Assembly: GCF_029338255.1 (NCBI RefSeq)
Contig: NZ_CP119787.1
Span: 1,302,001 to 1,366,000, forward strand
Direction of reading: 5' to 3'
Origin: Haloarcula halobia
GTDB lineage: Archaea > Halobacteriota > Halobacteria > Halobacteriales > Haloarculaceae
DNA length: 64,000 nucleotides
The first letter of the stretch is position 1; each line of letters opens with the position of its first letter. Positions 14,268 through 17,939 of the stretch are shown piece by piece. Below the pieces are notes generated by a model. The model saw nothing but the letters and a program-made list of their open reading frames with translations. It did not search any database and was not told the origin of the DNA. The position numbers and the translations under genes were made by a program.

Positions 14268-14369
14268 GCCGCCGGGGTCTCCGGCCCACGTCGAGTGAAT
14301 ACGTCACGTCGTGACGCAATTCGTCCGAGGGTGACCTAAAGCCGGTACACGCGATACTGAAGGGTGGGT

Positions 14370-15509
14370 ATGGGCCTGTTCAGTAGCGAACCGGCGGCTC
14401 GGGTGTGTGGAATCGCAATCGACGACTACGGCCTGCGGATTTCGACGATGTCCTGCGAGGACCGCACGCTGTCGAGTCCAGCGGACGGGGAGTTCGTCGG
14501 GATGCTGGACGGACCAGCCACGGCCCGGGCGAGGGGCATCGACGAGACGTTGACGGCGCTCGCGGGACGGACGGTGCCGCTTCTCGAGGCCGAAGACAGG
14601 GACGCTATGGGGCGCAGTGCGTCCGCCCGCGACGGCTATGCAGACCGCCTCGCGGAACTGTTCGACGAAATCGACGACGACGGCTGGGACGGGGAGACCG
14701 TCGTCGCGATGCCGCCGGACTACGCCGACAGCTCGGCACTCGAGCTCCAGGGGGTCGTCGAAGACAGCGGGTTCGACGTCCGGCAAGTCGTCACGCACGA
14801 TGCCGCATCGAGCGTACTGGGTGCGGTCGATCACGAGATCAACACCGACGCGAGCGGCAGCCACCCGATCGTCACCGTCGACCTCGGGCTACGGGCGGTC
14901 ACGGTGACCCTCGCGTCGGTGAACCTCGACGAAGGCCGCGTTCGAGTGCGCGCTCGCGACAGCGTCGACGCCGGCCTGGTCGACTTGCTCGGGCACACTG
15001 CGGTGAACGCGATCGAGGACTCCCGGCTGACACCCGACGAGGTGACCCTCGAGATGGAGACGGGACTGTATCCGGCCATCCGACAGATATTCGACCCGTA
15101 CACGGACTCCGCTCGCGGCGAAATCGAGGTCGGCGGCGAAACGATGCCGGTCACGGTGAGCACCGAGCACTTCATCGGCCTGTTCGCGGACGTCGCCTCG
15201 TTCGCGGAGATGGCTGCGACGGAGTTCGTCGTCGAGGCGGGGTACGTCCCGCGGGAAGTCGACCGCGTCCTCATCTCCGGCCTCGGCAGCGAGGGCGACT
15301 CCGGCGGCGACCTGACCGCACAGATCGCGGCCAGATTCACCAGCGAGGACTCGATGGCAGCCGAGGTCGGTGCCGGATACGCGCCCGAGAGCGTCTACTA
15401 CGGGAACGAGATGATGCCGGACGTCGGCGCCGCCGACGTCGCCCGTGAGGCCCACGCCCTCGGACGGGACCTCGATATGCTGGAGACGCTGGACGTGGAG
15501 GCGACGTGA
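14370..15509 (+). CDS. Divergent Hsp70/actin-fold ATPase-like protein without substrate domain
   Basis: Segment order matches an Hsp70 nucleotide-binding domain. A first beta-hairpin (CGIAIDDYGLRIS, residues 13-25) sits where GIDLGTTNS is expected. ETVVAMPPDYADSSAL and GFDVRQVVTHDAASSVLGAV follow the Hsp70 VITVPAYF and EPTAAALAYG regions. VTVDLGLRAVTVTL (168-181) replaces the phosphate-2 DLGGGTFDVS, and VDRVLISGLGSEGDSGGD (297-314) replaces IDxVVLVGGSTRIP. At 379 residues it stops at the domain end, with no substrate-binding part. Key Gly/Thr residues are altered, so ATP hydrolysis is uncertain. Its stop overlaps the next gene's start (TGATG), which suggests the two act together. The family call is by pattern, not search. 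Confidence 0.7.
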   Translation: MGLFSSEPAARVCGIAIDDYGLRISTMSCEDRTLSSPADGEFVGMLDGPATARARGIDETLTALAGRTVPLLEAEDRDAMGRSASARDGYADRLAELFDEIDDDGWDGETVVAMPPDYADSSALELQGVVEDSGFDVRQVVTHDAASSVLGAVDHEINTDASGSHPIVTVDLGLRAVTVTLASVNLDEGRVRVRARDSVDAGLVDLLGHTAVNAIEDSRLTPDEVTLEMETGLYPAIRQIFDPYTDSARGEIEVGGETMPVTVSTEHFIGLFADVASFAEMAATEFVVEAGYVPREVDRVLISGLGSEGDSGGDLTAQIAARFTSEDSMAAEVGAGYAPESVYYGNEMMPDVGAADVAREAHALGRDLDMLETLDVEAT

Positions 15510-16561
15510 TGTCTCGTGTGGACGACACCGACTCCGGCGCCCGCTCTGGGAGCGCCAGGAAGCCGACGGAGTTCACGGCCGACGACCTGCTCGAAGAGTA
15601 CGCCGAGACCTGGAGCGTCGCGAGCGACCTCGTCGAGGCGGCGACGGTGCAGCACGTCGAGCAGTGGGACGCGACGAAGGAGATCGAACGGACGCTCACC
15701 GTCACGGAGTCCCGGCGAACGATCTCCGTGGAACCGTCTGATGCGCCGTCTCGAGAGTCGGCCGTCCCGATCGACGAGCGCTACGAGCACGCACCGGATG
15801 GGTTCGAGGCTGCGACGGTGACGTTCGTGGACTTCGAGAACGCGTCGCTCGTGAGCTGTACGGACTGCGGGGGAAGCGGCCGAGAGGCCTGCAGCGAGTG
15901 CGACCGCCGGACGGTCGTCGAGTGCGAGGCGTGTGGCGGGGACGGCGCCGACGACTGCGGGGAGTGTGGCGGCGACGGCGCACGGACGTGTGGTTCCTGC
16001 AACGGCACGGGCGACCACGGGGACGCCAGGTGCAGTCGCTGCAACGGCACCGGCGAGACGACCTGCGAGACGTGCAACGCGACGGGGGAGCGTCGGTGCC
16101 CGACGTGCGACGGCGCTGGCGACGTGACCTGCCCGAACTGCTCGGGGAACGGCGACGTGCCGTGTGGCACCTGTTCGGGTACGGGTGAACTGTACGAAAC
16201 GACGCGGGGGACGCTGGAGTACGAACCGGCGTCGACGTTCTCCGTGGCGGACGCGAGCGGGGCCGACGAGTCGTGGTTCGAGGACGTCGAGGGCGACCGC
16301 CTCGACAGGACGGTTCGGGAGACGCCGGACCGTGCCGACGAGGGCGGCAGCGCGACGGTCAAACACGAGATCGAACAGCGCTCGGTCCCCGTAACGAAGG
16401 TCACCTACGAGTACGGCGACGACCAGTACGACCTGTTCGAGGTGGCGCGGGACCTCCACAGCCACTCGGCCCCGAAGTCGACCACGAGACGCCTCCTGCC
16501 GCTCGTCGCCGGGCTCGTCGTCGCCGCGGGCGCGGGGTACTACATCATGTTCGTCCTCTGA
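15509..16561 (+). CDS. Membrane-anchored DnaJ-type zinc-finger protein with ten CxxC motifs
   Basis: The 350-residue protein has three parts. Residues 1-115 are a soluble domain of unknown fold. Residues 117-222 hold ten CxxC motifs (positions 117, 128, 139, 150, 161, 175, 186, 197, 208, 219), mostly followed by GxG and spaced 11 residues apart, like an enlarged DnaJ cysteine-rich domain that could bind about five zinc ions. Residues about 328-349 are a C-terminal membrane helix, so the body probably faces the cytoplasm. There is no J-domain HPD motif. The start codon overlaps the stop of the Hsp70-like gene. I infer a membrane-tethered partner of that protein. Confidence 0.78.
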   Translation: MSRVDDTDSGARSGSARKPTEFTADDLLEEYAETWSVASDLVEAATVQHVEQWDATKEIERTLTVTESRRTISVEPSDAPSRESAVPIDERYEHAPDGFEAATVTFVDFENASLVSCTDCGGSGREACSECDRRTVVECEACGGDGADDCGECGGDGARTCGSCNGTGDHGDARCSRCNGTGETTCETCNATGERRCPTCDGAGDVTCPNCSGNGDVPCGTCSGTGELYETTRGTLEYEPASTFSVADASGADESWFEDVEGDRLDRTVRETPDRADEGGSATVKHEIEQRSVPVTKVTYEYGDDQYDLFEVARDLHSHSAPKSTTRRLLPLVAGLVVAAGAGYYIMFVL

Positions 16562-16671
16562 GTCGGGTCCGGACTCGCGGATCGGTATGCGTTCTCGGCC
16601 GTCGAGGATTCACTTCAACACACAGTTGGTACGACTCCCCCGTTCGTCACCACTGTTCACCCAAGGTGTGG

Positions 16672-17466
16672 TCACCGCGAGGTAAGCTCCGTCCCGGCGT
16701 CACCGTAGTACGCCGCCAGCGGCGTTCCACGGTCGCGGTGCGTTTCAAACAGTGAGCCGAGCCACTCGACCGCAGTGGCGTCGTCGTTGGCGGCGTAACC
16801 CACGAAGTTGTCGTGGGCACCGTGGATCATGAGGTACCCTCTCGTTCGGTCCCCACCGGTTCCGATGTACCACGCGAAGGGCAGGTCAGTGACGACAGAT
16901 ATCGTAATGTTCCCGCAGTCGAGCGCGTCACCGGTACGGGTCGGCATCTCGGCGGCGAGATAGTCGGCCACCACTTCGGTGACGACCAGTGACGCGTCGA
17001 GCGAACCTTCGACGACGGCTCGCCGGTGGACCGCCGACATGAACTCCTCGTCGTTCGGGGCGAATGCCCCTCCTCGGAGCTGGTCCGACTCCTCGACGAC
17101 CGCTCGGACGCGCTCCCACACGACCGCCGGCGGGAACTCGGACATCGTGACGACGTCCGCACCGGCGAAGAAACGGAACTCCCGTGGCCCTTCGGTGTCG
17201 AACTCGTTTATGACCTCGCCCCACTCCGTTGCCGTTTCCGCCACCGCAAGGGCCTCGTTTGCAGTCTCGAGCAGCAGCTCTCCGGTGTAGGTCGTCTCGT
17301 AGCCGTCCTCGGTCCGCTGGATCAGGTCGGCGTCTTCGAGCGCGTCCACCGCCCGATCGACCGTAGACCGGGAGTCGTCGAACTCGTCGACGAGGTCCCG
17401 CTTCCAGGCCGGCCGGGTGGACAGGCGATCGAGATACCGCCGGCGATCGAGAACGAGATCCAACAT
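16672..17466 (-). CDS. Winged-helix regulator, FilR1-like
   Basis: The 264-residue protein has an N-terminal winged helix (residues 8-70, around DEFDDSRSTVDRAVDALEDADLI). A larger domain of about 170 residues then follows, of the kind found in haloarchaeal and methanogen FilR1-like regulators, which probably senses a ligand or protein. The promoter side is a very AT-rich block at about 17470-17505. The target is unknown. It points toward, and ends 110 bases after, the CxxC protein gene. Confidence 0.8.
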   Translation of the reverse strand: MLDLVLDRRRYLDRLSTRPAWKRDLVDEFDDSRSTVDRAVDALEDADLIQRTEDGYETTYTGELLLETANEALAVAETATEWGEVINEFDTEGPREFRFFAGADVVTMSEFPPAVVWERVRAVVEESDQLRGGAFAPNDEEFMSAVHRRAVVEGSLDASLVVTEVVADYLAAEMPTRTGDALDCGNITISVVTDLPFAWYIGTGGDRTRGYLMIHGAHDNFVGYAANDDATAVEWLGSLFETHRDRGTPLAAYYGDAGTELTSR

Positions 17467-17939
17467 AGCCGGAGATTATTTTTATATTAATTAAGTATTA
17501 TTGTTTGGGGCCGGGTACCGAGTACGAGATCGGACCTCACCTCGTCCGGGTGGCTGTCGACGGCGGCTCCGCGAGAGGGACGGCGAGCGTCCGTCGCCGG
17601 TCGGGCGAAAAACCGGGGTAGAGCAGGGTTCCTCGAGGGTTCGTATTCAGCGCGGCGAGGGGGAGACACGGGTGATCCAGGACGCCCCCGCATCGAGAAT
17701 CAAGCGTCGGCGCACCACACTGTCTCCCGGGTTCTTCGACGAGCACGCCGGGAGCGACGCACGCCACTGCTGTCTGACCGCTGTCCGGGGCCGACCGGGG
17801 ACGACTGGCGCTGAAGCGGTCCGTCGTCACGGGGTGGCTTGGGTCCGATCGCTCCGGGGCCGCGCGAACCTGTCAGCGATATAGGGGTCTACTGAGAGCA
17901 CATACCAAGATTTAGAACCCATTGGTTGCAAGGGGGGGT
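17467..17939. other. Geneless stretch with AT-rich promoter block
   Basis: About 470 bases without a convincing gene. The first 40 bases are extremely AT-rich and contain TTAATTAA, and they serve as the promoter of the FilR1-like gene. The rest is GC-rich with open frames of up to 127 codons on both strands, but these are Arg/Gly/Pro-rich, lack known motifs and are best read as non-coding or decayed. A TTTAGA box at 17911-17916 belongs to the VTT gene. Confidence 0.6.

Follow-up and report, generated by a model that had tools for sequence, protein, structure and literature searches.

A mobile haloarchaeal gene pair encoding a divergent Hsp70-type nucleotide-binding domain and a putative tail-anchored, J-less multi-CxxC protein

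The gene pair and its coordinates

We analyzed a 64,000-nt stretch of the Haloarcula halobia genome (GCF_029338255.1, contig NZ_CP119787.1, forward strand, 1,302,001-1,366,000), here called the window; coordinates are window positions, with position 1 being its first letter. An earlier note on this DNA had singled out two overlapping open reading frames (ORFs), here named P1 and P2, and proposed that they couple an Hsp70-like ATPase domain to a membrane-anchored zinc protein of the DnaJ type. Both ORFs are present. P1 runs from an ATG at 14370 to a TGA at 15509, and P2 runs from an ATG at 15509 to 16561, with a GTG at 15506 as an alternative start. As the note had described, P2 starts within the stop of P1, and the two genes have one base in common in the sequence GTGATG. 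The features of the locus are listed in Table 1. Homologues were surveyed by a six-frame scan of 391 genomes of the haloarchaeal class, and a protein was counted as a strict orthologue of P1 or P2 when its identity exceeded 60%. Genomes (G) and loci (L) are cited by their survey handles where needed.

Table 1. Positions of the gene pair, its motifs and the surrounding features in the window
Feature	Position	Strand	Evidence
P1, 379-aa free-standing divergent Hsp70-type nucleotide-binding domain	14370..15509	+	Profile, Pfam, PDB, Foldseek, hydropathy
P2, 350-aa putative tail-anchored J-less multi-CxxC zinc protein	15509..16561	+	ORF, Pfam, CxxC count, hydropathy
Junction CGTGATG, P1 stop and P2 start overlapping by one base	15505..15511	+	Same GTGATG in all four pair genomes
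Phosphate-1 position VCGIAIDDYG (Hsp70 ILGIDLGTTN); Ala16 in place of the catalytic Asp, TT missing	14403..14432	+	Sequence and orthologues, by eye, outside hhalign coverage
Phosphate-2 segment DLGLRAVTVTL; retains D171 and one Gly but neither the GGT of DLGGGT nor the next Asp	14880..14912	+	hhalign against Hsp70 profile
Adenosine-motif position DRVLISGLGS (Hsp70 DEVILVGGSTR); Gly partly retained, TR missing	15261..15290	+	hhalign, orthologues
Ten CxxC motifs, residues 117-222, in 11-residue DnaJ-zinc-like repeats	15857..16174	+	Motif count
C-terminal transmembrane helix, residues about 330-349, after KSTTRR	16496..16555	+	Hydropathy; C-terminal region conserved in orthologues and distant homologues
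Candidate promoter/operator element CGTCAN5TGACGN5CGTCN5GTGASCTAA	14302..14339	+	27-30 nt before P1 start codon
Inserted segment of about 3.58 kb (pair and helix-turn-helix gene)	14278..17856		Empty site in nearest relative (L112)
Convergent helix-turn-helix regulator (HVO_A0261_N and FilR1_middle), inside the insertion	16672..17466	-	Domain match

P1 has the fold of an Hsp70 nucleotide-binding domain

Single-sequence searches of the window P1 against Pfam, NCBIfam and PDB gave no informative match. A three-sequence profile was therefore required, and the relationship to Hsp70 emerged when the window P1 was combined with two orthologues from outside its genus (61-64% identity). Aligned by hhalign with nine haloarchaeal Hsp70s, the P1 profile matched over 183 columns and residues 110-304 (91%, E = 1.3e-6), and the top match of the PDB profile search was also an Hsp70 (E = 0.004, residues 109-304). 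One P1 orthologue matched the Pfam HSP70 family (PF00012, E = 2e-4, profile positions 135-213) at 20.1 bits, which fell short of the curated cut-off of 20.6 bits, and the window P1 itself had no match to this family. The sub-threshold matches of the P1 profile in the genome survey lay mostly at query residues from about 109 to 160, inside frames of 570-700 aa, and those that were checked were Hsp70s. As a control, the reversed P1 profile gave 11 weak matches, one of which was an Hsp70 (E = 8.6); this control covers composition only, and its loci were partly picked by the P1 profile. A match of P1 to DUF4320 in Pfam (E = 0.01, below the cut-off) was discarded because it was absent from the P1 orthologues.

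The AlphaFold2 alignments were shallow, and the P1 model was built from five alignment rows. The model had a predicted local distance difference test score (pLDDT) of 46 overall and of about 55-80 over residues 143-303, and its order of strands and helices was that of the Hsp70 nucleotide-binding domain (NBD). All 50 of the listed Foldseek matches were Hsp70-family structures. The best (4e-12) was an entry of the ribosome-associated complex (RAC) with Ssz1 (5mb9), which ranked barely ahead of many other Hsp70s. VIA-align gave Z scores up to 13.2 at a root-mean-square deviation of 6.8-8 Å, indicating that the model has the common fold with poorly placed domains. Actin- and MreB-type proteins were not among the matches listed by Foldseek and VIA-align, an absence that is no proof. 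The profile-profile and structure checks proposed in the earlier note thus ranked Hsp70 first, on a model of low confidence. P1 ends at residue 379, which is the length of the NBD alone, and has no membrane helix. These profile comparisons and the predicted structure show that P1 has the Hsp70 NBD fold, with the segment order read earlier from the sequence, and that its substrate-binding domain (SBD) is missing.

Catalytic residues of Hsp70 are mostly replaced in P1

We compared P1 with Hsp70 at the catalytic and phosphate positions D10, K71, E175, D199, T204 and D206 (Hsc70 numbering). The motifs at phosphate-2 and the adenosine side lie at residues 171-181 and 298-307, respectively. By hhalign, DLGGGTFD corresponds to DLGLRAVT, with T204 replaced by A/E176 and D206 by T178, and NEPTA corresponds to THDAA, with E175 replaced by H143. 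The phosphate-1 motif GIDLGTT, aligned by eye, reads GIAIDDY, with D10 replaced by A16. There was no candidate counterpart of K71 in P1, and neither the K/R helix on the adenosine side nor the GGSTR motif is kept. The Asp equivalent to D199 is the sole survivor among these positions. Because nearly all the catalytic positions of Hsp70 are replaced, ATPase activity of P1 is doubtful, and the earlier designation of P1 as an ATPase was not upheld. P1 is probably an atypical or pseudo-Hsp70 NBD that would be unlikely to hydrolyze ATP. A distant P1 relative in genome G208 retains more of the site (VIGVDIGSS and VDMGATFID).

P2 is a putative tail-anchored zinc protein without a J domain

The earlier description of P2 agreed with our analysis: the protein contains exactly ten CxxC motifs, its hydropathy profile shows a C-terminal membrane helix, and a Pfam search found no J domain (PF00226). 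The motifs start at residues 117, 128, 139, 150, 161, 175, 186, 197, 208 and 219, mostly with an 11-residue period, and eight of the ten are exact CxxCxGxG by eye. The DnaJ_CXXCXGXG match remained below the Pfam cut-off (15.8 versus 32.7 bits, E = 0.017). The best 19-residue hydrophobic window starts at residue 332, with a Kyte-Doolittle value of 2.15. Following the positive-inside rule, the basic KSTTRR before the helix suggests that the zinc region probably faces the cytoplasm, where P1 is located. A P2-family profile aligned with haloarchaeal DnaJ along the 11-column zinc repeat only, and the C-terminal peptide-binding domains of DnaJ gave no alignment, indicating that the N- and C-terminal domains flanking the repeat are P2's own. 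These terminal regions recur across a haloarchaeal protein family. P2 can be described as a putative tail-anchored protein of a DnaJ-like zinc type, with predicted zinc binding.

The pair is conserved as a unit and appears to move horizontally

Strict orthologues of P1 and P2 were found in the same 3 of the 391 genomes, adjacent every time, and the identity of both proteins in other genera was 61-71%. In a fourth pair genome, that of Halolamina pelagica, P2 is intact and P1 is frameshifted in the assembly. By strict orthology the pair is present in 1 of 32 congeners; it is also present in 2 of 7 Halolamina genomes and 1 of 26 genomes of a third family. Differences between the genomes are concentrated at third codon positions. 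This bias, the conservation across genera and the invariant GTGATG in the four genomes speak against a chance arrangement. The strict orthologues of the two genes were never found apart, but the earlier expectation that a survey across haloarchaea would generally find them together was not supported: the pair is rare and patchy, and the wider P2 family is usually without P1 and is enriched near genes for J-like proteins and short Hsp70s. In the H. pelagica assembly, two frameshifts interrupt the P1 gene (L059:8001-9132), which may reflect sequencing error or decay.

The neighborhoods of the pair differ among the pair genomes, and a sequence element precedes it (Table 1). Across five genomes, matches to the core of this element with zero mismatches lay only before the pair, in the window's genome (G000), G296 and G333; all the other matches had three mismatches. 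The CTAA at about -30 would fit the TATA box of a leaderless transcript. The element is palindromic, recurs ahead of the pair in three families and is a possible operator of a shared regulator.

The nearest relative, whose mfnA is 97% identical, lacks the segment 14278-17856, and a VTT-domain gene comes next after its mfnA. The same mfnA-VTT adjacency was found in the other congeners compared. In nearly all other congener loci compared, the right-flank DNA of the insertion stands directly after mfnA, and none of them has the pair. The ends of the insertion were searched for mobile-element repeats, and no convincing terminal or target-site repeats were found. A search for related loci using P1 alone gave no matches, and no P1 was found in viral contigs and plasmids. 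Seeming P1 matches at L003 and L004 (G016 and G169) proved to be unrelated genes for 413-aa lipoprotein-like proteins. We read the pair as a horizontally moving module.

Relatives of P2 lie in chaperone gene neighborhoods

Genome G208 carries, on one strand and in this order, genes for a P2-like protein, a P1-like protein of 400 aa that is itself an Hsp70 NBD, a membrane J-like protein and a short Hsp70. By hidden Markov model searches, J-domain-like genes were found within about 9 kb of P2-family genes at 7 of 17 loci (L038, L042, L043, L045, L048, L050 and L057), compared with about 0.5 expected at a density of 23 J domains per 14 Mb, although the 17 loci are not all independent. Short Hsp70s of the 510-522-aa class likewise lie within about 9 kb of P2-family genes at three loci (L038, L043 and L048). 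The P2 homologues at these three loci are 31-35% identical to P2 and have the same terminal regions and membrane helix. L042 also has a P2 homologue, and L038 additionally has a P1 homologue. Each of these four clusters contains a short Hsp70, a membrane J-like protein or both, neither of which accompanies the window pair. At L042, a J-like domain is fused to a P2-type region, with vWA, PP2C-like, kinase and FHA genes read from the sequence around it. Distant P2 relatives are also present on two Halobaculum plasmids. These observations point to a family of membrane zinc proteins in haloarchaea that appears not to have been described before and that is associated with short Hsp70s and with J-like domains that often lack the HPD motif. 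Ordinary DnaK and several J proteins were present in each of the three pair genomes checked.

By eye, HPD-less J-like domains near P2-family genes were seen at L038:6065-7579, L042:7872-9935, L051:7794-8246 and L057:9908-10360; they parallel the degraded nucleotide site of P1. Two clusters (L043:8518-13579 and L048:4108-9330) represent a module conserved in haloarchaea, in which a P2-like zinc membrane protein is joined by a short Hsp70, a membrane J protein with HPD, a 222-aa protein of no known type and a small membrane protein. The large cluster at L042:1120-18556, in which vWA, PP2C-like, kinase, FHA and PQQ-like repeat proteins surround the fusion of J, zinc and transmembrane regions, looks like a membrane signaling or conflict system.

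A possible membrane-tethered pseudo-Hsp70 complex

We tentatively favor, at a little short of an even chance, the explanation that the pair is a co-translated two-gene mobile module making a membrane-tethered complex of an atypical Hsp70 and a J-less Hsp40-like protein, with a logic similar to that of Ssz1-Zuo1. Co-translation would provide matched amounts of the two proteins, the tail of P2 would anchor in the membrane, and P1 would dock on P2. P1 most likely binds P2, since the two strictly co-occur, their genes overlap by one base and a distant pair is present in G208. The complex could hold unfolded or assembling clients at the membrane and could act as a docking platform for the host DnaK and J proteins, as Ssz1 does for Zuo1 and Ssb at the ribosome. 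The ordinary DnaK found in the three pair genomes checked would provide a functional Hsp70 to which clients could be passed. Stress would probably switch the module on via the conserved promoter element. Several points weigh against this explanation: the low overall confidence of the P1 model; the N-terminal 100 or so residues of P1, including the phosphate-1 site, which are aligned by eye only; the P2 model, which had a pLDDT of 30 and was not used; and the P2-family members, most of which occur without P1.

Ssz1-Zuo1 is an obligate pair of an atypical Hsp70 and an Hsp40-class protein in eukaryotes (PMC8476630, PMC9197937). Ssz1 is truncated, binds ATP with little or no hydrolysis, and forms a stable complex with its Hsp40 that receives a working Hsp70 (PMC8476630). 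At the level of gene pairing, the window pair would similarly combine an atypical truncated Hsp70 with an Hsp40-class-like partner. In contrast, Zuo1 has a J domain and ribosome binding, whereas P2 lacks a J domain and has zinc repeats and a membrane anchor. Ssz1 retains an SBD-beta-like part and ATP binding, whereas P1 has no SBD and a more degraded nucleotide site. Pseudo-Hsp70s that partner an Hsp40-class protein or another Hsp70, such as Ssz1 and Hsp110/Sse, are known mainly from eukaryotes. A more specific proposal, possible but on the unlikely side, is that the pair is a mobile archaeal counterpart of RAC at the membrane, independently evolved outside eukaryotes, in which a catalytically dead Hsp70 NBD, locked to a tail-anchored J-less multi-zinc protein as a heterodimer, would form a platform on the membrane surface and bring DnaK to clients.

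Alternatively, the pair might be a regulatory or sensor component, separated from the rest, of an NTP-dependent conflict (defense) system; it would then detect invasion or damage and set off an effector, which we consider unlikely though still of appreciable weight. In a system of this type, a switch close to the membrane would be made up of Hsp70, NBD-only Hsp70, DnaJ fusions, GTPases, vWA and kinases. In the passages on the GAP1-N2 theme, Kaur et al. (2020) describe GTPase-centered conflict systems in which an Hsp70 is accompanied by a second, NBD-only Hsp70 gene that lacks the peptide-binding part, and in which DnaJ fusions, vWA, PP2C and kinases also occur (PMC7159879). The systems in those passages resemble the haloarchaeal genes in being membrane-proximal and mobile, with an NBD-only Hsp70 beside an Hsp70, and L042 has comparable vWA, PP2C-like, kinase and FHA neighbors. 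A second cluster in the window's own genome (L105) contains a short Hsp70, a degenerate Hsp70-GrpE-like fusion, a J-domain membrane protein, a GTPase-like protein and vWA; the pair is itself mobile and patchy, and in G333 it adjoins a gene for a fusion with a STAND NTPase. However, the window pair has no adjacent GTPase, GAP1, tubulin or effector: the insertion holds no effector, GTPase or vWA gene, and a TRAFAC GTPase and GAP1 were found neither within its 3.58 kb nor among the immediate neighbors. PADLOC-DB profiles did not match P1, P2 or five related proteins, the GTPase-like and 516-aa proteins of L105 had no Pfam match, and patchiness by itself does not demonstrate defense. Nor do the passages cited (PMC7159879) mention a membrane protein with multiple CxxC motifs.

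It is distinctly unlikely that P2 works largely by itself at the membrane, as the holdase or assembly factor of one particular enzyme located in or bound to the membrane, with P1 as a stabilizing subunit only. ORANGE and ZnJ2 are J-less zinc proteins with holding activity (PMC12063368, PMC5818400). The make-up of P2 matches such membrane-anchored proteins: plant DnaJE1-type proteins (ORANGE, ZnJ2, BSD2 and PSA2) have a CxxCxGxG zinc domain without a J domain, several are membrane-anchored, and holding-chaperone activity occurs among them. ORANGE acts on phytoene synthase, and ZnJ2/BSD2 act on RbcL. Distant P2 homologues are, moreover, often without P1. However, strict P2 orthologues always occur with P1, which is about as conserved as P2. 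The plant proteins have four repeats rather than ten and no Hsp70-NBD partner gene. ORANGE also differs in having two membrane spans before its zinc domain, whereas the anchor of P2 is C-terminal.

A neutral or selfish passenger without a chaperone role would be in line with the rarity and patchiness of the pair and with the frameshifted P1 in the H. pelagica assembly, but this is very improbable given that the promoter, the junction and the third-position-biased differences are conserved across three families. The cytoskeletal module raised in the earlier note, with P1 as an actin-like (MreB/FtsA/PilM-type) filament or membrane-cytoskeleton protein and P2 as its anchor, is scarcely credible: the superfamily fold is the same and the N-terminal MGLF with its β-strand might recall PilM-type starts, but Hsp70 ranked first throughout the sequence and structure searches with no actin-, MreB- or FtsA-type match listed above it, nucleotide-site residues are lost, polymerization partner genes are missing, and nothing suggests filaments.

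The earlier note had presented the arrangement as one not known. Each part has precedents, in Ssz1, in the plant ORANGE/ZnJ proteins and in the NBD-only Hsp70s of the passages cited (PMC7159879), and the G208 pair within a DnaK/J cluster is another partial precedent. The combination itself appears undescribed: the literature searched, which was mostly outside subscription journals, contained no case of an SBD-less and probably dead Hsp70 NBD paired with a multi-zinc protein that is tail-anchored. If the membrane-tethered pseudo-Hsp70 complex exists, this compact archaeal version would mean that the pseudo-Hsp70 arrangement evolved more than once, and it would offer a small, tractable system for studying the role of an Hsp70 nucleotide domain without a substrate domain or ATPase.

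The neighboring regulator gene and a separate chaperone-type cluster

In G333, a gene for a 1,126-aa protein fusing helix-turn-helix (HVO_A0261_N and FilR1_middle), STAND NTPase and TPR regions (L040:4429-7809, minus strand) lies upstream of the pair and divergent from it. Across 67 residues, the helix-turn-helix domain of this fusion shares 49% identity with the one encoded by the gene inside the window's insertion. Helix-turn-helix proteins of the HVO_A0261_N type may simply be common in haloarchaea.

The separate chaperone-type cluster in the window's own genome (L105, G000:C1:2668000-2687000) encodes a J-domain membrane protein, a HEAT-HNH protein, a 510-aa short Hsp70, a 634-aa degenerate Hsp70, a GTPase-like protein, a 516-aa protein and a vWA protein, and no P2-like zinc gene was seen in it. 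The 634-aa protein has a degenerate NBD and a weakly GrpE-like C terminus; as a P1 homologue it was rejected, with no detectable relationship (probability 0.2%). The cluster may represent a version, in haloarchaea, related to the Hsp70/GTPase conflict systems.

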